A stretch of DNA of 43,438 nt from a virus: IMG/VR virus record IMGVR_UViG_3300045996_001641, positions 1 through 43,438 of that record; one strand, written 5' to 3'. The translations under genes and the position numbers were made by a program. A model generated the notes under the pieces. The model searched no databases and was not told the origin of the DNA. It saw nothing but the letters and a program-made list of their open reading frames with translations. How positions within the stretch are numbered: the first letter of the stretch is position 1; each line of letters starts with the position of its first letter. Positions 1 through 25,857 of the stretch are shown in pieces.

Positions 1-1
1 C

Positions 2-85
2 GAGCACATGGCCGCGCTGTCGGAGCGCAGGGGCAAGATCGAGACGCTGAAGCAAGAGTTGGGGAGGAAGGTGCCCGGTGGCTGA
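2..85 (+). CDS. C-terminal end of an unidentified protein (runs in from the left edge)
   Basis: An open frame enters from the left edge and gives 27 residues before TGA. The visible part is charged and probably helical (ERRGKIETLKQEL), like the end of a short coiled coil. The next gene's GTG start overlaps its last codons, as elsewhere in this cluster, which supports it being real. An internal ATG at position 8 could start a 25-residue peptide, but a truncated longer gene is more likely. No function can be given. Confidence 0.5.
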   Translation, partial: EHMAALSERRGKIETLKQELGRKVPGG

Positions 86-632
86 CCTTGTTTGCGAGAT
101 GGTGATCGCGTGGCCGACCGATCGCGACGTGTTCCCAGACGACCCGGGAGAGCGCGACTGCGGCAAGCCAGCGACGCGTCGATGCTGCGGGCAGCCTGTC
201 TGCTCGAACTGCGAGCACAACTCAGGGACTCGGAAGCCTCACCGGATAGAGCCGGCCACCGAAGAGCCCGACCCGAAGCGGGGGGAGGCGCTACCGTGGG
301 AAGGGCACTACGCGGACACACCGCTCGGCGCGTGGCAGGCCTGGGCGTTCGACCTGATTCTCGACTGCGCACTCCTCGAAGGAGCGCCTGTCACCGACGA
401 CAGCGTCTTGCGTGACCGAATCGGAGCGGCTGTGCGAGCCCCTGCCGGCGTGCCGGTCGAGCGGGTGGAGCTACCAGAGTGGCGTGTCGCCAAGGTCCGC
501 GGAGCCATGGCGTTCGCTCGAGAGGCCTGGAAGCATAACGACGGCGCAGAGGGCGAGTCCGTGCGCCTGATCTGCAATGCGCTGGAGACGCTCCTGCCCA
601 AGGCAAAGCCCGACGCGGGCGGAGGTGGGTGA
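78..632 (+). CDS. Hypothetical protein with N-terminal Cys cluster
   Basis: 184 residues. The GTG start is preceded by GGAGG about ten bases upstream and overlaps the preceding stop. Cysteines at about 28, 36, 37, 42 and 45, with a nearby His (CCGQPVCSNCEH), look like a small zinc-binding knuckle. The rest is an acidic linker (about 55-75) followed by a helical domain with an Ala/Leu-rich stretch. The tail ends in four glycines. It belongs to no family I recognise. The gene heads a run of overlapping small genes, so it is probably co-transcribed with them. Confidence 0.75.
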   Translation: MADLVCEMVIAWPTDRDVFPDDPGERDCGKPATRRCCGQPVCSNCEHNSGTRKPHRIEPATEEPDPKRGEALPWEGHYADTPLGAWQAWAFDLILDCALLEGAPVTDDSVLRDRIGAAVRAPAGVPVERVELPEWRVAKVRGAMAFAREAWKHNDGAEGESVRLICNALETLLPKAKPDAGGGG

Positions 633-633
633 G

Positions 634-855
634 ATGGCGAAACAGGTCTACCGCTGGACGTCGTGGGTGGTCGTGGCGCGAGAGCCGGACGGTTCGGAGT
701 GGCTTGCTGCCACCGGATTCGACTTCCGCAGACAAGCGCGCATCGAGATCGATGAAACCCTCCGAACGGTAGCTCCGCGCTGCAAGTTCGTCACGAGGCC
801 TGTCAGCAACGAGGTCGAGCTCGCGCTGCCGAAGCGCCCGAAGAAGGTGAAGTGA
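634..855 (+). CDS. Small hypothetical protein, 73 aa
   Basis: The ATG follows the previous stop by one base, with a good GGAGGTG ribosome site inside the end of the upstream gene, so I chose it over an earlier in-frame start. The protein has strand-like segments (YRWTSWVVVAR, SEWLAATGF), a helix (ARIEIDETLRTV) and a second strand pair, then a Lys/Arg-rich tail (PKRPKKVK). The tail may be a nucleic-acid contact. Function unknown. Confidence 0.7.
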   Translation: MAKQVYRWTSWVVVAREPDGSEWLAATGFDFRRQARIEIDETLRTVAPRCKFVTRPVSNEVELALPKRPKKVK

Positions 856-860
856 TAGCG

Positions 861-1037
861 ATGACCAAGGCAGAGCGTGAGGCCCCGGTGGTCGTCATAG
901 AGGGCACCGTTGCCGGCGCTGAACTCAGTGAGTTCGCTAGGGCTGCTGAAGAGCAGAACCTTGCTCTCTGCTCTCGTCTCATCAGGTGGGGCGTCAGCAA
1001 GCCGAAGCGCCCGAAGCGAAGGAAGGCGGGGCGATGA
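861..1037 (+). CDS. Small hypothetical protein, 58 aa
   Basis: Starts at ATG 861, nine bases after an alternative GTG at 852 that overlaps the previous stop. Either may be used, which would add three residues. The N-terminal two thirds has a strand (APVVVIEGTV) and a helix (LSEFARAAEEQNLALCSRLI). The end is strongly basic (KPKRPKRRKAGR), resembling the basic tail of the preceding protein. The next gene overlaps it by ATGA. No known family. Confidence 0.6.
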   Translation: MTKAEREAPVVVIEGTVAGAELSEFARAAEEQNLALCSRLIRWGVSKPKRPKRRKAGR

Positions 1038-1282
1038 GCACCAGTCTGGACACCGCTTGCCGCGAACTCGCCGCGCTGTGCCAGGAGCTCGGAATCTGGG
1101 GCGCCCATGTCGGTGTTCGGTGCGACGGTCGCGTGGAGGTTGAGTTGCTCAGAGACTCGGTCGGCAGCGTTCGCGAACACGCCGACATCACGCATCCGGA
1201 GAACCCGCTGCCTGCCCCGTCTCGCGCCCTCACGATGGTGACCGAGAAGATGCGCGAGCAGCTCACCAAGAGGCGCCGATGA
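1034..1282 (+). CDS. Small hypothetical protein, 82 aa
   Basis: The ATG overlaps the previous stop (ATGA), which fixes the start and implies translational coupling. The predicted layout is an N-terminal helix (LDTACRELAALCQELGIWG), a strand pair (AHVGVRCDGRVEVELL), and a C-terminal helix ending in KRRR. Function unknown. Confidence 0.7.
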   Translation: MSTSLDTACRELAALCQELGIWGAHVGVRCDGRVEVELLRDSVGSVREHADITHPENPLPAPSRALTMVTEKMREQLTKRRR

Positions 1283-1656
1283 AACCACTGCGCGAAACGG
1301 TGGTGGAGCTGCGGAGGCTCGAGAAGGAGGCGACGCCGGGGCCGTGGCGACACGACAACGATGCGAAGGGCACGGAAGGCGACCCGTGCCTATTCACCGA
1401 GCGGGGCCCATCCTTTTGCCCGGGGAAGTCGCCGATATTCACAGCTCCGGCGTTCTGGACTGCCGCCGATGGAGACCTGTGCGCCGCCGCTCGCAACAGC
1501 CTCGGCCAGCTCCTCGACGCCGCCGACGAGAACGAGAGGCTTCGGTCGCTGCTGGGGGAAGCGCTGGCGGCGTTCAAGCGAGGGCACTGGTTAGTGGACA
1601 TTGAGGACCGCATCGAGGCGGAGCTGGGGACGCAGAGCGGGGAGGCGAGCAAGTGA
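1279..1656 (+). CDS. Ead/Ea22-like phage protein
   Basis: 125 residues, overlapping the previous stop by ATGA. The opening LRRLEKEATPGPWRHDND, followed by AARNSLGQLLDAADENERLR, has the layout of Ead/Ea22-like proteins of lambdoid and other phages: an ATPGPW motif, a small variable β region, then a helix around 'RN.L..LLD'. Those proteins sit in early regions and have no settled function. The resemblance is by motif only. The C-terminus is helical and acidic. Confidence 0.65.
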   Translation: MKPLRETVVELRRLEKEATPGPWRHDNDAKGTEGDPCLFTERGPSFCPGKSPIFTAPAFWTAADGDLCAAARNSLGQLLDAADENERLRSLLGEALAAFKRGHWLVDIEDRIEAELGTQSGEASK

Positions 1657-1850
1657 TCGCGCCACGTCAAATCCGCTGCATCCTCGACGCAACCGGCCAC
1701 ATCGTCGAAGCCGCCGCCTGGACCCAAGCCGAGGCTCGCTCATGTCGCCGCAAGTGGGCGCAGGCTTACCCCGAGCGGAAGTTCGCCATCGCGGCCTACG
1801 AGTTGAAGCGGCCGGATGGGGTGGTGATCAGGTTGGCGGGGAAGGGGTGA
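1653..1850 (+). CDS. Small hypothetical protein, 65 aa
   Basis: The GTG start overlaps the previous stop. It is a compact mixed α/β protein: strand (QIRCILDATGHIVEAAAW), helix (TQAEARSCRRKWAQAYP), strand (KFAIAAYELKRPDGVVIRLAG). It is the last gene of the overlapping chain that begins at 78. A non-coding stretch with two palindromes follows. No known family. Confidence 0.65.
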   Translation: MIAPRQIRCILDATGHIVEAAAWTQAEARSCRRKWAQAYPERKFAIAAYELKRPDGVVIRLAGKG

Positions 1851-1853
1851 CGA

Positions 1854-1869
1854 TTTCTGGAGCCAGAAA
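1854..1869. promoter_or_regulatory. Inverted repeat TTTCTGG-AG-CCAGAAA
   Basis: A perfect 7-bp inverted repeat with a 2-bp centre starts three bases after a stop codon. The small centre fits a dimeric protein-binding site better than an RNA hairpin. No U-tract follows, so it is not a standard terminator. It lies about 40 bp upstream of the first 14-bp palindrome. Confidence 0.4.
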
Positions 1870-1905
1870 AGGCTGAAGTGAGAATAACCGACAGACCATC
1901 GCTGG

Positions 1906-1936
1906 CGTTGGCGCCAACGGTGTGGCAGGGTATCTT
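1906..1936 (+). promoter_or_regulatory. 14-bp palindrome (operator copy 1) within a candidate promoter
   Basis: CGTTGGCGCCAACG (1906-1919) is a perfect palindrome that recurs once, at 2648-2661. Inside it, TTGGCG (1908-1913) is followed after 17 bp by TATCTT (1931-1936), giving a possible -35/-10 pair. A dimer bound to the palindrome would cover the -35 box. The palindrome ends 18 bp before an ATG, the same distance as in the second copy to within one base. Confidence 0.55.
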
Positions 1937-1937
1937 C

Positions 1938-2141
1938 ATGTTGAACGTGAACGAGACAAAGGTGATTGCGGAGGCTTCGACGGTTGACGGCGTGCTTTTC
2001 ATGAGCCGAGGCCGCCGCGGCTCTGTGCTCGTTTCCAGGGAACACGCGTGGTCGGACGTGCAGGCCTGGCAGAAGAACGAGAAGGTCAACCGAATCATGG
2101 TGCGACGAAAGGGCGAGATCGTCTGGACCTGGACTCGCTGA
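1938..2141 (+). CDS. Small hypothetical protein behind palindrome 1, 67 aa
   Basis: I start at ATG 1938 because the in-frame upstream start would place the palindrome inside the gene. The ATG falls one base after the candidate -10, so if that promoter is real the start may be later or another promoter is used. The protein looks β-β-α-β: VDGVLFMSRGRRGSVLVS, helix REHAWSDVQAWQ, strand NRIMVRRKGEIVWTW. Function unknown. Confidence 0.6.
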   Translation: MLNVNETKVIAEASTVDGVLFMSRGRRGSVLVSREHAWSDVQAWQKNEKVNRIMVRRKGEIVWTWTR

Positions 2142-2160
2142 TCGCCCCTAGGCCCACCCG

Positions 2161-2194
2161 GCCCGGCACTCGCGGCAAACCGCGGGCCCCGGGC
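2161..2194 (+). promoter_or_regulatory. Stem-loop H1 of a four-member hairpin family
   Basis: Lower stem GCCCGG/CCGGGC, a 2x2 mismatch, an upper stem of seven pairs including one G-T, and the loop CAAA. The GTG start of the next gene follows about 20 bases later, with GGAGG between. The same lower stem and a single unpaired base at the same junction recur in H2, H3 and H4. Few Ts follow, so it would be a poor intrinsic terminator. A leader structure or processing site are alternatives. Confidence 0.6.
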
Positions 2195-2214
2195 TCGAGG
2201 GCGTGGAGGCACCA

Positions 2215-2400
2215 GTGACTTACCAGATTCGCTCCAAGAAACCTCACGAGCACGCGGAACTCGAGCGCTTCTCGCAGCGCGAGAATGTCGGCCTGATCAA
2301 TTACACCTCGGAGTTTCACGCGCGCGCCGTCGCGGACGCGCTGAAGAAACACGCGCACATTACGTGCGTCGTGTGGCTCGATGGCAAGCCCCTCGACTGA
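2215..2400 (+). CDS. Small hypothetical protein behind hairpin H1, 61 aa
   Basis: GTG start with GGAGG five bases upstream. An in-frame GTG at 2203 overlaps that ribosome site and is less likely. Layout: strand VTYQIRSKK, helix EHAELERFSQREN, strand VGLINYTS, helix EFHARAVADALKKH, strand ITCVVWLDGKPL. That is a compact α/β fold. Function unknown. The non-coding leader holding H1 separates it from the gene before. Confidence 0.6.
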   Translation: MTYQIRSKKPHEHAELERFSQRENVGLINYTSEFHARAVADALKKHAHITCVVWLDGKPLD

Positions 2401-2442
2401 CCCCTCGCCCTCGCGACCCCGGCCCGGTAGGCTAGCGCGCCC

Positions 2443-2643
2443 ATGCCAAAGAAGAAGCGACCCGTGAGAGGATCTAGCGACACGCCTTCGGAAGAGTACC
2501 TGAACGCCAAATGGGAGCGCGCGAACATCCGCATGCCGAAGGAACTTGGCCTTGTGAAGCGCCTGCGAGCGCTCGCGGATCGCCGAGGTGAGTCACTGTG
2601 GGAGTGGGTTAAGCGCCACGTCGAGATCGATGAAAGAAAGTGA
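2443..2643 (+). CDS. Ribbon-helix-helix (Arc/CopG-like) DNA-binding protein
   Basis: 66 residues with a basic N-terminus (MPKKKRPVRG). Then come a short strand (ANIRMP, about 27-32), a helix (KELGLVKRLRALADRRG) and a second helix (ESLWEWVKRHVE). This strand-helix-turn-helix order is the RHH plan of Arc/CopG/MetJ proteins, which dimerise and bind palindromes through the strand. The gene lies between two identical 14-bp palindromes, one 5 bp after its stop, so autoregulation or cross-regulation is a reasonable guess. The start is the only ATG in frame; the ribosome site is weak. Confidence 0.7.
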   Translation: MPKKKRPVRGSSDTPSEEYLNAKWERANIRMPKELGLVKRLRALADRRGESLWEWVKRHVEIDERK

Positions 2644-2647
2644 TTGA

Positions 2648-2661
2648 CGTTGGCGCCAACG
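2648..2661. promoter_or_regulatory. 14-bp palindrome (operator copy 2)
   Basis: Identical to the copy at 1906-1919, CGTTGGCGCCAACG, with G following in both. TTGACG overlaps its left edge, but no good -10 follows at 17 bp. It ends 17-18 bp before the ATG of the next gene. Two identical 14-mers 742 bp apart with matching geometry are unlikely by chance. Confidence 0.6.
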
Positions 2662-2678
2662 GATGTCACTCTGCCTCT

Positions 2679-2885
2679 ATGAACAACGCCGCTGCCACCG
2701 ACACCACCCGCAACTCACTCATTGACGCCATCTCGACCAAGGTAGAGCCACTCGATCGGGACTCGGTATGCATCTACCGACACGGCGTCTTCATTCGCTC
2801 CTGCTCTCACGACTCGGCCAGCGGCTACATCGACAATCTCGTTAGGCGCGGCTACGGCAAGGTGAGTGAGTGCGAGATCAGGTGA
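2679..2885 (+). CDS. Small hypothetical protein behind palindrome 2, 68 aa
   Basis: I start at ATG 2679; an earlier in-frame GTG at 2640 would put the palindrome inside the coding region. Layout: Thr/Asn-rich start, helix (RNSLIDAISTKV), strand pair (DSVCIYRHGVFIRSCS), helix (DSASGYIDNLVRRG), strand (KVSECEIR). The β-β-α-β end is similar in plan, not clearly in sequence, to the protein behind palindrome 1. Function unknown. Confidence 0.6.
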   Translation: MNNAAATDTTRNSLIDAISTKVEPLDRDSVCIYRHGVFIRSCSHDSASGYIDNLVRRGYGKVSECEIR

Positions 2886-2906
2886 TCGCGACTGCGTCAC
2901 CGGCTG

Positions 2907-2938
2907 GCCCGGCACTCGCGGAAAGCGCGAGTCCGGGC
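2907..2938 (+). promoter_or_regulatory. Stem-loop H2 of the hairpin family
   Basis: GCCCGG, one unpaired C, ACTCGCG, loop GAAAG, CGCGAGT, CCGGGC. Thirteen base pairs with a single bulge make it the strongest member. It is followed by CTTAGGCGCGTGGAGGG and an ATG. H1 has a closely related follow-on (GAGGGCGTGGAGG), so the whole leader seems duplicated, not only the stem. Confidence 0.65.
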
Positions 2939-2962
2939 CTTAGGCGCGTGGAGGGACACAGC

Positions 2963-3157
2963 ATGACCAAATCAGCCAGCACGATCCGCATCTGGAAGGA
3001 CGACAGTGAAGTGGTTTTCGTCTTCGGCGAGGGGACGGCGCCGGTTCAGGTTCACGAGGACGGGCGCACCGTCGTCTGGGGATACAAGACCGCTAGCGCT
3101 GAGCTGACGACGCGACTGCGCCTTGGCTGGAGCTTGACGCCGGTGACGGTGGAGTAG
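2963..3157 (+). CDS. Small hypothetical protein behind hairpin H2, 64 aa
   Basis: ATG with GGAGGG seven bases upstream. The open frame extends further upstream but would include hairpin H2, so I reject the longer form. The sequence is almost all strand-like: STIRIWKDDSEVVFVFG, APVQVHEDGRTVVWGY, with a short helix (SAELTTRLRLG). It may be a small β-barrel or sheet. Function unknown. Confidence 0.6.
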   Translation: MTKSASTIRIWKDDSEVVFVFGEGTAPVQVHEDGRTVVWGYKTASAELTTRLRLGWSLTPVTVE

Positions 3158-3176
3158 GGGACGACGGAGCCGACTG

Positions 3177-3205
3177 GCCCGGAGTTGCCGCGAGGTGACC
3201 CGGGC
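3177..3205 (+). promoter_or_regulatory. Stem-loop H3 of the hairpin family
   Basis: GCCCGG, unpaired A, GTTGCC, loop GCGA, GGTGAC, CCGGGC. The loop is a GNRA tetraloop. Compared with H4 the upper stem keeps pairing while changing sequence (G-C to C-G at the first pair, T-G to C-G at the third), a small sign of selection on structure. TTTCGGG follows. Confidence 0.6.
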
Positions 3206-3217
3206 TTTCGGGTGCCA

Positions 3218-3230
3218 GGAACCTGGTTCC
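3218..3230. promoter_or_regulatory. Short palindrome GGAACC-T-GGTTCC
   Basis: Six-bp arms around a single T, between H3 and a strong AGGAGG ribosome site. As RNA the one-base loop could not form, so it would open to a larger loop. As DNA it is a plausible dimer site. There is only one copy in the area. Confidence 0.3.
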
Positions 3231-3250
3231 GCAAACAACAGGAGGCGCCC

Positions 3251-3514
3251 ATGCCGCCGTGCTGGCGAAAGCCAGTAGAGCCCGACTCGCCACGGGGTGA
3301 GCGGGCTTTAGGCGTCATGAGCGAGCAATTTCTGATTCAGAGCTTCGATGGGACCGCGTTCGTTGCCGTGGGGACAGATTGCAAGCTGGATCGTGCACGC
3401 CGTGCCGCGCAGACGATCACTCGACTTCGAGATTGTGAGACACGCGTAATTGATCGAGCGCTTCCGGTCGGGCCGCCGTGGATGGTGTCAGTTGTGGCCA
3501 GATATGAGCCGTGA
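3251..3514 (+). CDS. Hypothetical protein with two possible starts (87 or 65 aa)
   Basis: ATG 3251 has an excellent AGGAGG five bases upstream. A second in-frame ATG at 3317 has almost none but lies directly after hairpin H4, as starts lie after the other hairpins. The shared part is strand (EQFLIQSFDGTAFVAVG), helix (KLDRARRAAQTITRLRD) and strands (ETRVIDRALP, PWMVSVVARYE). The extra N-terminus (MPPCWRKPVEPDSPRGERALGV) looks unstructured. If 3251 is used, H4 lies inside the coding region and could control initiation at 3317. Function unknown. Confidence 0.6.
   Translation: MPPCWRKPVEPDSPRGERALGVMSEQFLIQSFDGTAFVAVGTDCKLDRARRAAQTITRLRDCETRVIDRALPVGPPWMVSVVARYEP
3280..3306 (+). promoter_or_regulatory. 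Stem-loop H4 of the hairpin family
   Basis: GCCCG, unpaired A, CTCGCC, loop ACGG, GGTGAG, CGGGC, then TTTAGGCGTC and an ATG at 3317. An extra A-T pair can extend the lower stem. It is the same bulged architecture as H2 and H3. The TTTAGGCG that follows also matches the CTTAGGCG after H2. Confidence 0.6.
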
Positions 3515-3517
3515 TTT

Positions 3518-3808
3518 ATGACCCAACTTGCCATCAAGCTCACCCCTCCGCTCGACCTCGCCCCCTGGCGCATACCGCTGTGGGGCGACGAGTACCAGGC
3601 GATCGTCGACGCCGCCGCATCCGAAGTCACGCTACACCCGGACGAGACTTTGACCGAAGCACTGCGCCGCTTCGGCTACGAGCGCGCCACCGTCGACGGC
3701 CGCCGAGTCACCGTGCGGAACGGCGTGGTTAAGCGGCTGGGCGATTGTCGACGGAGCTGGATTTGGTTGGCCCGAGTGAAGAGGCGTATTCAAGGGAGAC
3801 GAGGATGA
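3518..3808 (+). CDS. Hypothetical protein, 96 aa
   Basis: ATG three bases after the previous stop. The N-terminal 45 residues are hydrophobic and mixed (LAIKLTPPLDLAPWRIPLWGDEYQAIVDAAA). Then come a helix (TLTEALRRFGYERA), a strand (TVDGRRVTVRNGVV) and a strongly basic end (RRSWIWLARVKRRIQGRRG). A basic, Trp-containing tail could bind nucleic acid or membrane. Unrecognised. Confidence 0.65.
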   Translation: MTQLAIKLTPPLDLAPWRIPLWGDEYQAIVDAAASEVTLHPDETLTEALRRFGYERATVDGRRVTVRNGVVKRLGDCRRSWIWLARVKRRIQGRRG

Positions 3809-4128
3809 GCAAGTGGAACGTCGGCGACGATTGCGTGGTGACCAACGTCAACGCCAGGCCCAAGCACACCAAGATTGAGAAGGTTGGTCGCAAGTTCGTG
3901 ACGGCGGGCGGCCACGACTTCGAGATCGAGACCGGCAACGATCGCGACAAGGTCTACCGTCACTTTCGCCTCTACACGCTCGCCGAATGGGAGCGGGTCA
4001 TCGCGGTGGGCGAGGTCTGCGATGCGGTTAACTGCTTCAAACGCGCATCAGTCGAAGGTCTGACAAATGCGCAACTCAGGGCGCTGCGGGACATCTTGCG
4101 AAAACCAGCGCTCACTCCGGAGCTGTAG
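3805..4128 (+). CDS. Hypothetical protein with SH3-like N-terminus, 107 aa
   Basis: The ATG overlaps the previous stop (ATGA) and has GGAGACGAGG upstream. The first half (KWNVGDDCVVTNV, HTKIEKVGRKFVTAGGHDFEIETG) has the spacing of a small β-barrel of the kind found in many phage proteins opening with 'VGD.V'. The second half is helical (LAEWERVIAVGEV, LTNAQLRALRDILRK) with two Cys. No enzyme motif is visible. Confidence 0.65.
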   Translation: MSKWNVGDDCVVTNVNARPKHTKIEKVGRKFVTAGGHDFEIETGNDRDKVYRHFRLYTLAEWERVIAVGEVCDAVNCFKRASVEGLTNAQLRALRDILRKPALTPEL

Positions 4129-4316
4129 TGCGCTGCAACTTCTGCAACGACCCCGCCGTGCACGACTCGACCGGCTCGCGCTACGGCTCCAGAATGCTCG
4201 CCTGCTACGCCTGCACGGTCAGGTTCTGGAAGTGGGCCTTGCAGCACATCAACCGGCCAGCGCGGAAGAATGGGGCTGACTTTTACGAGGCGGCCGGAAA
4301 GTGGAGGATGAAGTGA
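4128..4316 (+). CDS. Small zinc-ribbon-like protein, 62 aa
   Basis: The GTG start shares one base with the preceding TAG. Two Cys pairs, CNFC (3, 6) and CYAC (26, 29), twenty residues apart match a zinc ribbon or treble-clef knuckle. The C-terminal half is helical and basic (VRFWKWALQHINRPARK). Such proteins often bind nucleic acid or another protein; nothing more specific is visible. Confidence 0.65.
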   Translation: MRCNFCNDPAVHDSTGSRYGSRMLACYACTVRFWKWALQHINRPARKNGADFYEAAGKWRMK

Positions 4317-4699
4317 CCAAGCTATCCCAATCCGAATTGACAGCCCTGCTTGCGCCAGTGCGCGCGGAGCTCGACAGGATCGAAGCCGAATCCGCAGTCA
4401 CGATCGAACGGGAGGAGGCGGCGGGCGAGGGCTCGTATGATGCCATCGCGTATCACGACGCCAGGGGGTCACTTGACACAGTCAAGAGCATCCGCGCCGT
4501 TCTCGACCGCCTCAACCCCGAGGCCGACACCCTGGTGATCCTCGGGATCGCGGCGCTCGGGATGCTGCGGGAGCTGCGAGACAGCGGTAACCTCAGCGTG
4601 CACGCCAACCGTGTCGAGGGTGGACCTGCTGCCTACGAGGACTGGCACAAGCGTGCCGACGCGCTCCTGGCCGCGGCGTATCCGAAGGCGGGGGAGTGA
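4313..4699 (+). CDS. Hypothetical helical protein, 128 aa
   Basis: GTG start overlapping the previous stop, with GGAGGATG just upstream. The first 70 residues are predicted as long acidic helices (LSQSELTALLAPVRAELDRIEAESAVTIEREEAAGEG), coiled-coil-like. A hydrophobic helix (TLVILGIAALGMLRELRDSG) and an amphipathic C-terminus follow. The hydrophobic stretch is too charged at its end to be a sure membrane span. Function unknown. Confidence 0.65.
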   Translation: MTKLSQSELTALLAPVRAELDRIEAESAVTIEREEAAGEGSYDAIAYHDARGSLDTVKSIRAVLDRLNPEADTLVILGIAALGMLRELRDSGNLSVHANRVEGGPAAYEDWHKRADALLAAAYPKAGE

Positions 4700-5280
4700 T
4701 GGAAACGCAACGAGTCGAGCCCACGCATTGCGACACCTGCCCAGCCAGCCTCGAGCGCGGCTACTCGTACGTCTACGAGGGAGAGAAGCTGGTGCGCGCC
4801 ATCTGCTTCGACTGTGACCGCAAGGAGCGCAATGCCGCGTTCCTGAAGACCGGCGTGCTGACGACCAAGACCATGGTCGAGGCGTCACTTGATCGGGCTC
4901 GGCCGCATGCGCCGTCCCATGCTCCACCGGAAGCAGTCGCCGCCCTGGACGCCATCGAAGCCGCGACCAAGGAGTTCGACCGCGACGTCTGGTACGGCGG
5001 CCTGCGTGAGTTCCTAGTGGCGTCGAATGACCGTGGCCACTCACGCCACGAAGGCAAGTTCAAGATCCTTTCGTACTACATGGCCGGCCGCTACATGTTC
5101 ACGCTCGAAGACGACGAGGCGAGCCTGACCCTGATCACGACTGACGACCCAGGTGTGCGCATGGGCATCCAGGGCGTGTGCGCAACGAAGGGTCAAGCGC
5201 TATCGCTGGTTGGGCGCGCGCTGGACCTGTGGCGAAAGCACGGAAGCCTTGAGCCCGATCGCGAGGTAGGGCTGCTCTAG
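4699..5280 (+). CDS. Hypothetical protein with N-terminal zinc finger, 193 aa
   Basis: ATG 4699 overlaps the previous stop; a GTG one codon earlier is possible. Cysteines at 11, 14, 36 and 39 (CDTC...CFDC) form a clean four-Cys zinc site in the first 40 residues. The middle is helical (VAALDAIEAATKEFDRD). The C-terminal 80 residues look like an α/β domain (YYMAGRYMFTLEDDEASLTLIT, then a helix KGQALSLVGRALDLWRKHG). No catalytic motif seen. Confidence 0.7.
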   Translation: METQRVEPTHCDTCPASLERGYSYVYEGEKLVRAICFDCDRKERNAAFLKTGVLTTKTMVEASLDRARPHAPSHAPPEAVAALDAIEAATKEFDRDVWYGGLREFLVASNDRGHSRHEGKFKILSYYMAGRYMFTLEDDEASLTLITTDDPGVRMGIQGVCATKGQALSLVGRALDLWRKHGSLEPDREVGLL

Positions 5281-5306
5281 TCGGCCACCAGTGCTACGCC
5301 AACCGC

Positions 5307-5498
5307 GTGCCCTTCCTCACCGAGACCATCCACCTAGCCAGCGGCCAAACCTGCGAGATCGCCTACGAACTAATGCGCGACGGCGGCTACTGCGCGATCC
5401 TGGAGTTCGGCGGCGTCAGGGTCACGGCTGCCGGCGCGACCAGGGAGCTGGCCAAGGCGAACCTGGTGGCCAAGCTGGCGGCGAGGGTGGGCGAGTGA
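5307..5498 (+). CDS. Small hypothetical protein, 63 aa
   Basis: GTG start with no strong ribosome site; the exact start is uncertain. Layout is strands (LTETIHLASGQTCEIAYEL, GYCAILEFGGVRVTAAG) then a helix (TRELAKANLVAKLAARVG), a β-β-β-α mini-protein like several others in this cluster. The stop overlaps the next start by GTGA. Function unknown. Confidence 0.55.
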   Translation: MPFLTETIHLASGQTCEIAYELMRDGGYCAILEFGGVRVTAAGATRELAKANLVAKLAARVGE

Positions 5499-5752
5499 CC
5501 TGGGCCAAGAACGGGCCCGTCTGGTGTCGCTTCTTCAACGGCGACGCCGACCGCTACCATGCGGCAATCGACGGCTACATTCGCCGCGTCTACGCCGATG
5601 GTTCAGCCACCTACTACGACCGGCAGCAGCGGCTCGTCACCATCCCACCCAAGCCCTGGCAGCACTGGGCGACTCGCGAGGAATGCGAGGCCGAGATCGC
5701 GAAGCAGCCGTGGCTGGATGTGCCGACGATCTCGGAGAGGGTAAGCCGCTGA
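5495..5752 (+). CDS. Hypothetical protein, 85 aa
   Basis: GTG start overlapping the previous stop. Rich in aromatics (WAKNGPVWCRFF, ATYYDRQQ, PWQHWATREE). The latter half looks like a small domain ending in a helix (REECEAEIAKQPW). It is the last of the unrecognised plus-strand genes before the toxin-antitoxin promoter. No known family. Confidence 0.6.
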   Translation: MTWAKNGPVWCRFFNGDADRYHAAIDGYIRRVYADGSATYYDRQQRLVTIPPKPWQHWATREECEAEIAKQPWLDVPTISERVSR

Positions 5753-5777
5753 TTTCCGTTGTTGACGGATTGTTTAC

Positions 5778-5812
5778 AGTCTGTTGACAGACTATTCACC
5801 GGGTGTCATATT
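5778..5812 (+). promoter_or_regulatory. Promoter and operator of the toxin-antitoxin operon
   Basis: TTGACA (5784-5789), 17 bp, CATATT (5807-5812) form a good -35/-10 pair. A perfect palindrome, AGTCTG-TTGA-CAGACT (5778-5793), overlaps the -35 box. This is the usual arrangement where an antitoxin represses its own operon. A weaker repeat, CCGT-TGTTG-ACGG, lies just upstream (5757-5769) and contains TTGACG. The start codon follows the -10 by only six bases, so the transcript would be leaderless or nearly so. Confidence 0.65.
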
Positions 5813-5818
5813 GGTTCC

Positions 5819-6166
5819 GTGGTCGAGGTCATCGTTACCGACAACTTCAGAGAGTGGTACGAGGCGCTCGACGACTCCGGCGTCGAAGACGTTGGTGCTG
5901 CGATTGGTGTGCTTGAGGACCAAGGTGTTAACTTGGGCTTCCCGCGCTCTAGCGACATCAAGGGCGCGTCCTTTGCACTACGTGAGCTTCGCGTTCAGTC
6001 AAATGGTCGACCGTTCCGCGTGTTCTATGCATTCGACCCTGCGCGACAAGCCGTCCTACTCATTGGCGGCGACAAGACCAACGACAACCGCTTCTATGAG
6101 ACCATGATCCCGGTCTCTGAGCGCATCTGGAAGGAGTACCTCCATGAAACTGCACAAGTGGAATGA
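5819..6166 (+). CDS. RelE/HigB-family toxin (type II toxin-antitoxin)
   Basis: 115 residues, GTG start chosen because the longer frame would run through the promoter. The order of segments is typical of HigB/Gp49-like RelE-superfamily toxins: FREWYEALDD, a helix ending LEDQGVNLGFPRSSDIKG, then LRELR (54-58), RPFRVFYAFDP, LLIGGDKT and a C-terminal helix. Family members are mRNA interferases acting at the ribosome. The basic residues of LRELR and RPFR are present, so the toxin looks intact. The downstream antitoxin overlaps by 23 bases. Confidence 0.8.
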   Translation: MVEVIVTDNFREWYEALDDSGVEDVGAAIGVLEDQGVNLGFPRSSDIKGASFALRELRVQSNGRPFRVFYAFDPARQAVLLIGGDKTNDNRFYETMIPVSERIWKEYLHETAQVE

Positions 6167-6446
6167 CGTAAAGCGGGGGCGCCTCTCAGAAGAGCAGATC
6201 CGGCGCGTCGATGCCCGCGTGCAGATTGATCTGCTGGAGATGACCCTTGCTCAGCTCCGCAAGGAACTAGACCTGACGCAGGAGCAGGTGGCTGCCGCTG
6301 CGGAGATGACGCAGAGCGAGTTCTCGAAGATCGAGCGCCGAGATGACCACCGTGTCTCCACGTTGCGTCGTGTGTTGCGCGCACTTGGTGGCGACATCGA
6401 GGTCACGGCTGTGCTGCCCGATCGTCGCGTAAAGCTGAGCATATAA
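6144..6446 (+). CDS. HigA-like antitoxin, XRE-family helix-turn-helix
   Basis: 100 residues. An N-terminal arm (about 1-35, with DARVQIDLLEMTLAQLRK) precedes a clear XRE helix-turn-helix (LTQEQVAAAAEMTQSEFSKIERR, then STLRRVLRALGGDIEV). GGAGT upstream and the overlap with the toxin frame support translational coupling. As in HigBA systems the toxin gene comes first. The protein should neutralise the toxin and repress the operon at the palindrome at 5778. A terminator follows the stop by 12 bases. Confidence 0.8.
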   Translation: MKLHKWNDVKRGRLSEEQIRRVDARVQIDLLEMTLAQLRKELDLTQEQVAAAAEMTQSEFSKIERRDDHRVSTLRRVLRALGGDIEVTAVLPDRRVKLSI

Positions 6447-6458
6447 TATAAGTACAGA

Positions 6459-6506
6459 ACGCGGAAGCCCGCCATCCCTGTTGTGGGGGACAGCGGGCTT
6501 CCGCGT
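6459..6506. terminator. Bidirectional intrinsic terminator
   Basis: A perfect 14-bp stem, ACGCGGAAGCCCGC with its complement GCGGGCTTCCGCGT, surrounds a 20-base centre that can pair further (TCCC/GGGA). It lies in the 76-bp gap between a plus-strand stop and a minus-strand stop, where convergent transcription must end. T-tracts are short on both sides, as is common at high GC. An AT-rich ATATAATATAAG precedes it. Confidence 0.75.
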
Positions 6507-9925: not shown

Positions 9926-11166
9926 GCCGCCACCTTCTGCCCTCTGACCATTGCCATCTCGTTCACGATTGGAATCACCTGGCCCCAGACGCACCCGTGC
10001 TCGTCCATGTCGATCAGCCCAAAAGCATGCTGCCAATCACGCAGAGCTCGAGCCTTGTGCAAGTAGCTAATTTCAGCATACGAGCCGAGCCATCCTACGT
10101 TCAAGCAGACGTGACCTTCGCCCTTCGTGGTGCCTTGATAGGCGACCGACGCTCTGTGGGAATGCCCCACTGAAACGTTGCCGCCGACATCGAGCAGCGA
10201 TTGGCGCGCAGTGTTCACGCCGCATCGGCCTACGTCGTGCGTAAAGTACATCCGGCCCACATTGATCCCCTCGAAGTACGGGATCCACTCGATGCCGCGC
10301 TCTTTGACCTTCAGATATTCCTGAAGGGTTCGCACCATGCCATCCAATTCCGGCACCTTCTCTGCCACGATCCGCGTGAGCCGCCTTTCGTGGTTGCCCT
10401 CGGTCCAGATCTTTCTGGGGATGCGTAGCGCGTCGATCTCGTCGAGTTTCTCGTTCACAACGTCGAGCTCTTCGACGACTCTGTGTCGGCGGGTCGGGCT
10501 CTTCGTGTGGCTAGAGATGGCTTCGCAATCGGCAAAGTCGCCTATCAGGACCAGCACATCCGGACGCACCTTTCGCGCCACATTCAGGAACACTTCCCAT
10601 GCGACAGGGTCGTGGTACGGAACGTGAGTGTCTGGGCAGACTAGGATCGTTTGCTCTCTGCCGGAGAACGTCGGTGGGCCCTTCGGCTCTTCACGCATGA
10701 CGAACGTGCGATCCGCGGCCGGCTTCTGGAAGAACTCGCTGATTTTCGGCATCTCCCATGAGATGCCGAGGCGCTCGTTTTCCTCTCGCCGCTGCTTCTC
10801 CAGGATCTCGTACGGGGTGCTGGTCTCTAGAAAAGAATGACGCCCAGGCTTCACGTCGACACGCGACGGAGAGGCCTGGGCGGGGTTTGATGCGGGAGCC
10901 GCGTACGGTCCCGCTTTATGTGCCGGCACCTGTCCGGCTCGATTCAAATGATCGCTGGGCGTACCTAGATTCAGATCAGGAAACCGACGCCGGCCAGTCT
11001 CAAACAGCTCTCGCAGTGAGCGCGGCGAAGTCTGCCACCCGTGCTCACGTAGCAGCAACGCGCAGGCGTCGCTCGCGTTGGCGCTGCGGTTCAGCGCATG
11101 CACCAGCACATGAAAGTCTTCGCGCTCTCTTCGCGTAGGGATGCCCAATCGATCCTCCCGAAGCAC
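9922..11166 (-). CDS. Calcineurin-like metallophosphoesterase with helical N-terminal extension
   Basis: 414 residues. All metal-binding motifs are visible: D179-T-H181, GDFAD (209-213), GNHE (257-260), the His of FTHD (310) and GHSH (334-337). The fold hydrolyses phosphoester bonds (nucleotides, nucleic acids or phosphoproteins). The first 60 residues look like a helix-turn-helix (ASDACALLLREHGWQTSPRSLRELFE), followed by a Pro/Ala-rich linker. That suggests DNA targeting, perhaps an Mre11/SbcD-like or phage DNA-repair role. The gene is preceded by a tandem repeat at 11254-11279. Confidence 0.85.
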   Translation of the reverse strand: MLREDRLGIPTRREREDFHVLVHALNRSANASDACALLLREHGWQTSPRSLRELFETGRRRFPDLNLGTPSDHLNRAGQVPAHKAGPYAAPASNPAQASPSRVDVKPGRHSFLETSTPYEILEKQRREENERLGISWEMPKISEFFQKPAADRTFVMREEPKGPPTFSGREQTILVCPDTHVPYHDPVAWEVFLNVARKVRPDVLVLIGDFADCEAISSHTKSPTRRHRVVEELDVVNEKLDEIDALRIPRKIWTEGNHERRLTRIVAEKVPELDGMVRTLQEYLKVKERGIEWIPYFEGINVGRMYFTHDVGRCGVNTARQSLLDVGGNVSVGHSHRASVAYQGTTKGEGHVCLNVGWLGSYAEISYLHKARALRDWQHAFGLIDMDEHGCVWGQVIPIVNEMAMVRGQKVAA

Positions 11167-14855: not shown

Positions 14856-15158
14856 TCAGGGAAGCGGGGTGGTGAAGTTGCTCGGCTTGACCTTGAGGTA
14901 GCCCTCGCCAGCACAAACGAGTGCGCCGCTACCGATCCAGCGGTAGTGATAGGTGCCCCTCTCGGTCATCTGATATTCGAACGAGTAGATGCCCTCGGAA
15001 TCGCGCGTGATGTCGTCGCCGTCGTAGGTGGTCTCAGTGCCGGCCGGCGTTCGGACCAGAACCTGAACGGTCGTCGGATCCGTGACCTCGCCGTCGCTGT
15101 TAGTGAACGTCCCGCGCAGGATCGTCTGATCGCCGATGTCGTAGGTGTTGATGCTCAT
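14856..15158 (-). CDS. Small β-sandwich phage protein, 100 aa
   Basis: Strands throughout: TYDIGDQTILRGTFTNSDGEV, TTVQVLVRTPAGTETTY, GIYSFEYQMTERGTYHYRWIGSG. It has the look of a single Ig-like/fibronectin-like domain ('G.Y.f.y....Gty.yrw'). Last gene of the tail-fibre operon, overlapping the preceding stop by ATGA. It may be a fibre accessory or a virion decoration protein. Confidence 0.65.
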   Translation of the reverse strand: MSINTYDIGDQTILRGTFTNSDGEVTDPTTVQVLVRTPAGTETTYDGDDITRDSEGIYSFEYQMTERGTYHYRWIGSGALVCAGEGYLKVKPSNFTTPLP

Positions 15159-25086: not shown

Positions 25087-25857
25087 TTACGAAGGCGTAA
25101 GCCCTGTGTAATCGAGCGGGTCGATATCGAGATCGAACCCACCCGGCTCGGAAAGTGTGAACGTGCAATAGGCTGGCAATATGCGATCGAGCAGCTGCAC
25201 GCCCTGCACGTTGATGAGTTGCGTGTACTCGCCGAGCGTCATGCCTGGCGGCTGCTGAACCTGAACCCAGAGGTGGCTACGTTCGCTGGACCAGGCTCCC
25301 CCACCGAGGTCTGTCAACGGATCACCCGGATTTACCCCAGGCCAGAACGTCTGTGTCGGTGGGTTCGCTAGGTCTGTGCCCTCCGTGAAGCTCGCGTCGA
25401 CATAAACGTCGCCAAGCAGATCCTGGAGCGCGGTCCGGATCGTGGCCAGGTTCAGTTCCGCGCTGGCCTTGAAGTGTGCGGCGCATCGCTGCCTGAGTTG
25501 CCACTTCTGATCGGTGGGGCTCGACGGGACCGCCAGCACCTTGACCCAGTACGGCAGCCCCTCGTCAGACGTAGCCGGTTGCTGCGCGTTGCAAGCGAAC
25601 TTCTCCGGCGCGCGAAAGCAGCGATAGGCCAGGACGCGTGCGGCCGCCAGGTTCTCACAGTGGACGAGCGTGCCGCCGAGTTGCTTTGAATAGGCAGACC
25701 CGCGGAGGTTGCGCAGCTCGCAGTAGACGAACCACGCGTAGGGCGCCGAGCCCTCGGTATCGCTTGCGCGCTTGTCCAGAGCCCCGCCGTAATCGCCGAT
25801 CGCAGCAGCGCGGCTCCATGCCGGTTTGCCGGCTGGTGTCATTGACCCGTTCGCCAT
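25087..25857 (-). CDS. Baseplate protein, YmfQ/Mu gp48-like
   Basis: 256 residues. It comes after the baseplate J gene (with two small genes between), where Mu-type phages carry gp48. The C-terminal half (ELNLATIRTALQDLLGDVYVDAS ... LLDRILPAYCTFTLSEPGGFDLDIDPLDYTGL) has the YmfQ-like plan of a strand/helix block and a short conserved β tail. The N-terminus (AGKPAWSRAAAIGDYGGALDKR) resembles that of the protein at 26310, which is unusual. It would help attach fibres to the baseplate wedge. Confidence 0.6.
   Translation of the reverse strand: MANGSMTPAGKPAWSRAAAIGDYGGALDKRASDTEGSAPYAWFVYCELRNLRGSAYSKQLGGTLVHCENLAAARVLAYRCFRAPEKFACNAQQPATSDEGLPYWVKVLAVPSSPTDQKWQLRQRCAAHFKASAELNLATIRTALQDLLGDVYVDASFTEGTDLANPPTQTFWPGVNPGDPLTDLGGGAWSSERSHLWVQVQQPPGMTLGEYTQLINVQGVQLLDRILPAYCTFTLSEPGGFDLDIDPLDYTGLTPS

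Follow-up and report, generated by a model that had tools for sequence, protein, structure and literature searches.

A structured RNA element between small genes of unrelated dsDNA phages, with likely copies in a metagenomic virus

A structured RNA element recurs in several unrelated dsDNA phages of IMG/VR and is present in none of the RNA catalogues searched. Two hairpins, H2 and H4, of virus record IMGVR_UViG_3300045996_001641, analysed here over all of its 43,438 nt (the window), are likely but not certain members according to covariance models derived from other phages, and they stand with two further hairpins, H1 and H3, in a row of mini-genes. We give roughly an even chance to the reading that H1–H4 are intercistronic cis-acting RNAs of this recurrent family, coupled to the upstream stop codon through an outer helix, P0.

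Four bulged stem-loops in a row of mini-genes

The window is a 43.4-kb virus fragment with a GC content of 63%, and its tail genes resemble those of Mu/T4-type myophages. By tail sheath (61% identity), its best sequenced relative is MW202476; a search of two genome groups for a prophage or host with the tail sheath protein returned nothing. Late genes occupy the minus strand, and a row of small plus-strand genes extends from position 1 to 6446. H1–H4 all lie on the plus strand within this row. H1 (2160–2195) begins 18 nt past the stop codon of mini-gene A1 (1938–2141, 67 aa) and is followed by mini-gene B1 (2215–2400, 61 aa, GTG start), both without a Pfam match. H2 (2906–2939) begins 20 nt past the stop of A2 (2679–2885, 68 aa), and H3 (3176–3206) begins 18 nt past the stop of B2 (2963–3157, 64 aa), the gene that separates H2 from H3 and whose protein has zero relatives in IMG/VR. 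H4 (3278–3308), which has no annotated upstream gene end, lies ahead of the ATG at 3317 of B3 (3317–3514, 65 aa). As the preliminary description had stated, each hairpin precedes a mini-gene start, with gaps of about 20, 24, 45 and 9 nt for H1 to H4, the gap for H3 being measured to an alternative start at 3251. This start is in frame with B3 and has a strong Shine–Dalgarno (SD) sequence; judged from the sequence, the region 3251–3316 may either place H4 inside the coding sequence or be a gutted mini-gene between H3 and H4. Elsewhere in the same gene row, a small protein encoded at 3805–4128 resembles Pfam PF24203 (Phage ProQ C-terminal-like; E = 8.6e-10), and an overlapping gene pair at 5821–6446, a small toxin-like ORF followed by a helix-turn-helix ORF, resembles by eye a toxin–antitoxin system.

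Folding yields stable GC-rich stem-loops of −25 to −32 kcal/mol, and when the roughly 43,400 windows of 42 nt in this DNA are ranked by energy, H1–H4 are four of the lowest seven. With hyphens separating arms, unpaired bases and loops, the folds are GGCCCGG-CA-CTCGCGG-CAAA-CCGCGGG-CC-CCGGGCT for H1, GGCCCGG-C-ACTCGCG-GAAAG-CGCGAGT-CCGGGCC for H2, GGCCCGG-A-GTTGCC-GCGA-GGTGAC-CCGGGCT for H3 and GAGCCCG-A-CTCGCC-ACGG-GGTGAG-CGGGCTT for H4. The loops, the single unpaired C or A and the 2×2 mismatch of H1 that had been read from the sequence are all reproduced, as are the pair swaps between H3 and H4 (G–C to C–G and T–G to C–G), in which pairing is kept. Two other hairpins of the window stand out by their stability. 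One, at 6462–6503, is very stable (−32 kcal/mol), has a GCCCGC stem and two Ts, lies at the convergent junction of the early and late blocks and is probably a bidirectional terminator. The other, at 10841–10882, is the most stable of the window. Judging from the extent of the PHROG match, the metallophosphoesterase gene on the minus strand probably has its true start downstream of this hairpin.

To assess whether the four form one family, 133 hairpins that have this lower stem in other viral contigs served as background, with a mean pairwise alignment score of 25. H1 and H2 align with a score of 62, which is reached by 0.0002 of the background pairs and by none of the comparisons against H1 or H2. 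The pairs H3–H4 (score 34) and H2–H4 (score 32) are borderline, each being reached by 0 to 3% of the background comparisons, and the likeness of H1–H3, H1–H4 and H2–H3 is ordinary for unrelated GCCCG hairpins. Of 180 background strand-hairpins, 33 have a single unpaired base at the junction. Tails are shared by pairs only: TTAGGCG is common to H2 and H4 only, and GCGTGGAGG is common to H1 and H2 only, with neither following the stem of H3. In H2, the tail TTAGGCGCGTGGAGGG (2940–2955) comprises the conserved TTAGGCG and an SD sequence; in H4, the TTAGGCG tail (3308–3314) takes the last base of the hairpin as its first T. H1 is a diverged duplicate of H2. The best copies of the element in the window are H2 and H4, whereas H3, with an H4-like stem and another tail, would be a degenerate copy. 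The suggested family of four is thereby reduced to one clear duplication and two borderline pairs, and the trailing sequence that it was said to share is common to pairs of hairpins that leave out H3.

The duplication extends beyond the hairpins. Two near-identical 18-bp operator-like palindromes on the plus strand, TGGCGTTGGCGCCAACGG at 1903–1920 and TGACGTTGGCGCCAACGG at 2645–2662, share the core GTTGGCGCCAAC and lie 19–20 nt 5′ of the ATG of unrelated mini-genes, those starting at 1938 and 2679. The window holds two matches to this sequence pattern, whereas 0.07 would be expected, and the palindromes are likely repressor sites. The palindromes are 742 nt apart and H1 is 746 nt from H2; these spacings show that the unit is a duplicated or swapped cassette. 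The A1 and A2 proteins, which lie between the near-identical operator and hairpin modules, have no significant similarity. Parallel to the window operators, the promoter-like regions 1226–1260 and 2180–2222 of another phage contig, L138, contain the palindromes GGCCAAATTGGCC and CCAAATAATTTGG.

Recurrence and covariation in other phages

The element has a stem P1 of 6–8 bp, typically AGGCCCGC/GCGGGCCT, then a single bulged base or a small internal loop, and a stem P2 of 3–7 bp that often carries a GNRA loop. It ends in a purine-rich tail, T(A/T/G)AGGC(A/G), running into SD-like sequence. It is placed between two genes, and some phages have multiple copies in their mini-gene rows.

The exact core of H1 and H2 has zero matches in IMG/VR. 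A pattern combining the GCCCG stem with the H2/H4 tail matched 39 IMG/VR contigs, some of which contain real bulged hairpins before starts, and a second pattern matched 25. The tail with only a GGCC 3′ arm was found at three independent loci, each with a hairpin ending exactly there. Stem and tail were each rejected as a sole signal: the tail lacking a GC arm occurred in 18 contigs and was accompanied by a GC-rich hairpin of this kind only in L138 and its relative L139, and in a control scan AGGCCCGC..GCGGGCCT hairpins were common, many being T-tract terminators and 0 of 180 having the tail. Such hairpins are likewise very common in the IMG/VR viral contigs L156–L275. All carriers of the element are metagenomic contigs. 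In bacterial genomes, the pattern search gave 13 matches, mostly coding or terminator-like. No clear copies were found in the early operon gaps of MW202476. The hairpin at 25466–25494 of that genome resembled a copy but was rejected as one, because its position at a convergent junction makes a terminator more likely. Among 15 TWAGGC-tailed hairpins, nine have one junction bulge and six a GNRA loop; among 169 controls, 33 have the bulge (p = 0.0013) and 10 the GNRA loop (p = 0.0005). The TWAGGC tail was built into the search patterns, and these single-step p values are optimistic because the patterns were refined stepwise on the same data. In a post hoc split, not a planned test, the nine bulged tails go on with A or G and the six unbulged ones with C or T.

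A covariance model, R1, was seeded with five hairpins of other phages from one equal-length class, because MAFFT misaligned the 5′ arms when stem lengths were mixed. R1 recovered two non-seed copies in L138, at 1517 (34.6 bits) and 1766 (43.6 bits). This phage has three hairpins in a row of genes for proteins of 52–85 aa; their P1 and P2 stems differ in compensated fashion, their loops are GNRA and their tails are near-identical. Further carriers hold two copies (G011, G026 and G019) or up to three (G022), and the G026 pair combines the same geometry and the same 14-nt tail with compensated stems. Across 13 R1 matches, 95.4% of the cells are paired and two-sided changes occur at 8 of 12 pairs, a level reached in 0 of 500 shuffles; this covariation figure leans towards structure since the R1 and R2 alignments were fitted to it.

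The second model, R2, was built from the R1 matches, and the E-values of the models are rough. Over 12 kb of sequence, R2 matches H2 with 26.6 bits (E = 1.4e-6) and H4 with 26.1 bits (E = 1.9e-6). H1 (5.8 bits) and H3 (4.1 bits) are not matched by themselves, and H1 is tied to the element only as a duplicate of H2. Among unselected GCCCG hairpins the highest scores are 29.2 and 25.3 bits, and in 735 bacterial genomes R2 gives nine matches of 29 to 34.6 bits, which are largely terminators; the readable ones are either plain terminators or ambiguous. We hold the membership of H2 and H4 to be likely, not certain, because about 26 bits is within reach of these background and bacterial matches. The preliminary description had called for a covariance search; the one made here, with models from hairpins of other phages, matches H2 and H4 and does not match H1 or H3.

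The earlier statement that no named element resembles these hairpins holds for Rfam 15, which at the gathering threshold has 0 matches in the window and 0 in seven carrier loci. The best sub-threshold match in 2100–3400 lies on the opposite strand and is to a snoRNA model with no relation to the hairpins (E = 0.28). A literature search, with most subscription journals outside its scope, found nothing relevant on a described phage element of this kind.

Position relative to stop codons and a possible coupling mechanism

P1 starts 16–23 nt past the upstream stop codon in 14 of 19 members, as against 24 of 115 control hairpins (p = 1e-5), and pyrimidines make up 64% of the ten bases 5′ of P1, as against 39% in controls (p = 1.6e-7); the controls in both comparisons include A-tract terminators. 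Because the element keeps a fixed distance from the upstream stop, we regard it as intercistronic and not as a free leader. The duplicated RNA leader proposed in the preliminary description is thus partly supported, namely in kind, by the further copies in mini-gene rows of other phages, the two-sided changes, the carriers with separate T-tract terminators and the match of H2 and H4 to R2, and needs correcting as to position.

The post-stop pyrimidine tract and the tail are predicted to pair as the outer helix P0. The flanks pair better with each other than with partners drawn by permutation (p = 0.003; p = 0.009 when the window is left out). At H1, the putative strands are CGCCCCTAGGCCCA (2143–2156, plus strand), directly past the stop codon, and AGGGCGTGGAGGCA (2198–2211, plus strand), which includes the GGAGG before the GTG at 2215; the duplex is predicted at −19.8 kcal/mol and ranks first of 20.

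The fixed stop distance, the intercistronic position and P0 together suggest an element that is opened by the ribosome. P1 and P2 would stay folded throughout, as a scaffold just beyond the footprint of a ribosome that has reached the upstream stop, and P0 would mask the purine/SD tract of the tail. A ribosome terminating on the upstream gene would disrupt P0, and the downstream gene would then be translated in step with the upstream one. The geometry of SD masking fits the window (H1 and, in part, H2) and the G022a copy. It is not general: in L138, G016, G019 and G020 the P0 helix does not reach as far downstream as the SD of the predicted start, and in these four the tail may be a standby site. 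Overall, the role of the hairpins is probably the tuning of translation of neighbouring genes.

Hairpins that mask an SD and are opened by a ribosome at the upstream stop are familiar from translational coupling. To our knowledge, these are features of individual mRNAs. The same action is proposed here, and the element would differ in being a portable family across many phages.

Alternative explanations and related systems

It is possible, though on the unlikely side, that the hairpins are intrinsic terminators or attenuators, GC-rich structures that end mini-gene cassettes and cut onward transcription, possibly with antiterminated read-through. Like Rho-independent terminators, the element has a GC-rich stem soon after a stop codon: H1–H3 start 18–20 nt past their stops, much as same-stem T-tract hairpins do (median 24 nt). 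H3 and H4 end in TTT, and the hairpin at 6462–6503, a presumed terminator, likewise pairs a GCCCGC stem with few Ts. P1-bearing hairpins are common in viral contigs and often are terminators, and hairpins with few Ts are a common sight between the genes of GC-rich phage contigs; in L156–L275, 97 of 125 strong-hairpin gaps between tandem genes have no T-tract. Against termination, the tails of H1–H4 hold one to three Ts and no T-tract, a terminator scan calls none of them, and the element has a small bulge and a conserved purine tail, TWAGGCR, with no known termination role. H1 and H2 are also only about 20 nt from the next start, which leaves no room for a promoter. Two carrier phages have T-tract terminators that are separate from the element, so the hairpins need not be terminators: there are several elsewhere in L138 and L139, which are of the same phage type (L139 has integrase, portal and Erf genes), and one in G019. 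L138 units run promoter, gene, element, gene, element, gene and T6 terminator, with the promoters assigned by eye. In L138/L139 and G019, the element is probably not the terminator. The earlier preference for a leader over four poor terminators gains from these carriers, and for the window plain terminators become less likely.

Phage RNA hairpins with bulges or GNRA-like loops are known from early operons, in lambda-type nut sites and HK022 put RNAs, and an RNA-binding protein or antitermination complex of the phage might bind the element in the manner of a boxA with a GNRA-capped boxB. GNRA loops, the small bulge and the pyrimidine tract directly 5′ agree with such a site, and in the L138_3 copy this tract reads TGCTCTTA, which we take by eye to resemble boxA. 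The boxA-like sequence was seen by eye in L138 only, however, and the loops vary (CAAA, GAAAG, ACGG and 8-nt loops). The stems and tails differ from those of nut and put sites, and repeated copies between genes would be unusual for nut sites; we consider this explanation improbable. Still less probable is that the hairpins are cassette boundary repeats, recombination joints for mini-gene swapping with no direct role in expression. Near-identical operators and hairpins flank dissimilar proteins in the two window modules, and the genes 3′ of the element differ between phages, as such joints would predict, but the compensatory changes imply selection on RNA pairing and the distance to the stop codon is constrained. 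A recombination-joint role has reportedly been proposed for T4-type phages, in which Arbiol et al. in 2010 are said to have described repeated regulatory cassettes, PeSLs, with a stem-loop among small genes, an early promoter and a tie to gene shuffling. The window hairpins differ from PeSLs in sequence and in the gap from H1 and H2 to the next gene, which has no room for a promoter.

The nearest published analogue of the element is the ESAS/SAS system of cluster K mycobacteriophages (PMC3203893). SAS is a 13-bp sequence, GGGATAGGAGCCC, and ESAS are 17-bp repeats conserved in sequence, their function being left unresolved (PMC3203893). As with the element, an inverted repeat lies just 5′ of a conserved block with an SD and of a start codon, and a single phage has several such copies ahead of its non-structural genes (PMC3203893). 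ESAS is conserved in sequence, whereas the stems of the element covary and its tail is TWAGGCR. With up to two mismatches, GGGATAGGAGCCC is absent at H1–H4 and at the other copies tested; its sole occurrences in the window are at 14946 and 41132.

Returning to intercistronic coupling, a wider reading, which we put forward tentatively and hold to be unlikely as it stands, is that unrelated phages place a portable structured RNA family between small genes, where the terminating ribosome opens the next start, as a reusable translational-coupling module that marks rows of accessory genes. If confirmed, this would make an uncatalogued structured RNA family a marker for rows of uncharacterised small phage genes, including genes without recognisable relatives, and would provide a simple system for testing the co-expression of neighbouring genes on one phage mRNA. 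It would account, too, for those T-poor hairpins that are apt to be annotated as poor terminators.
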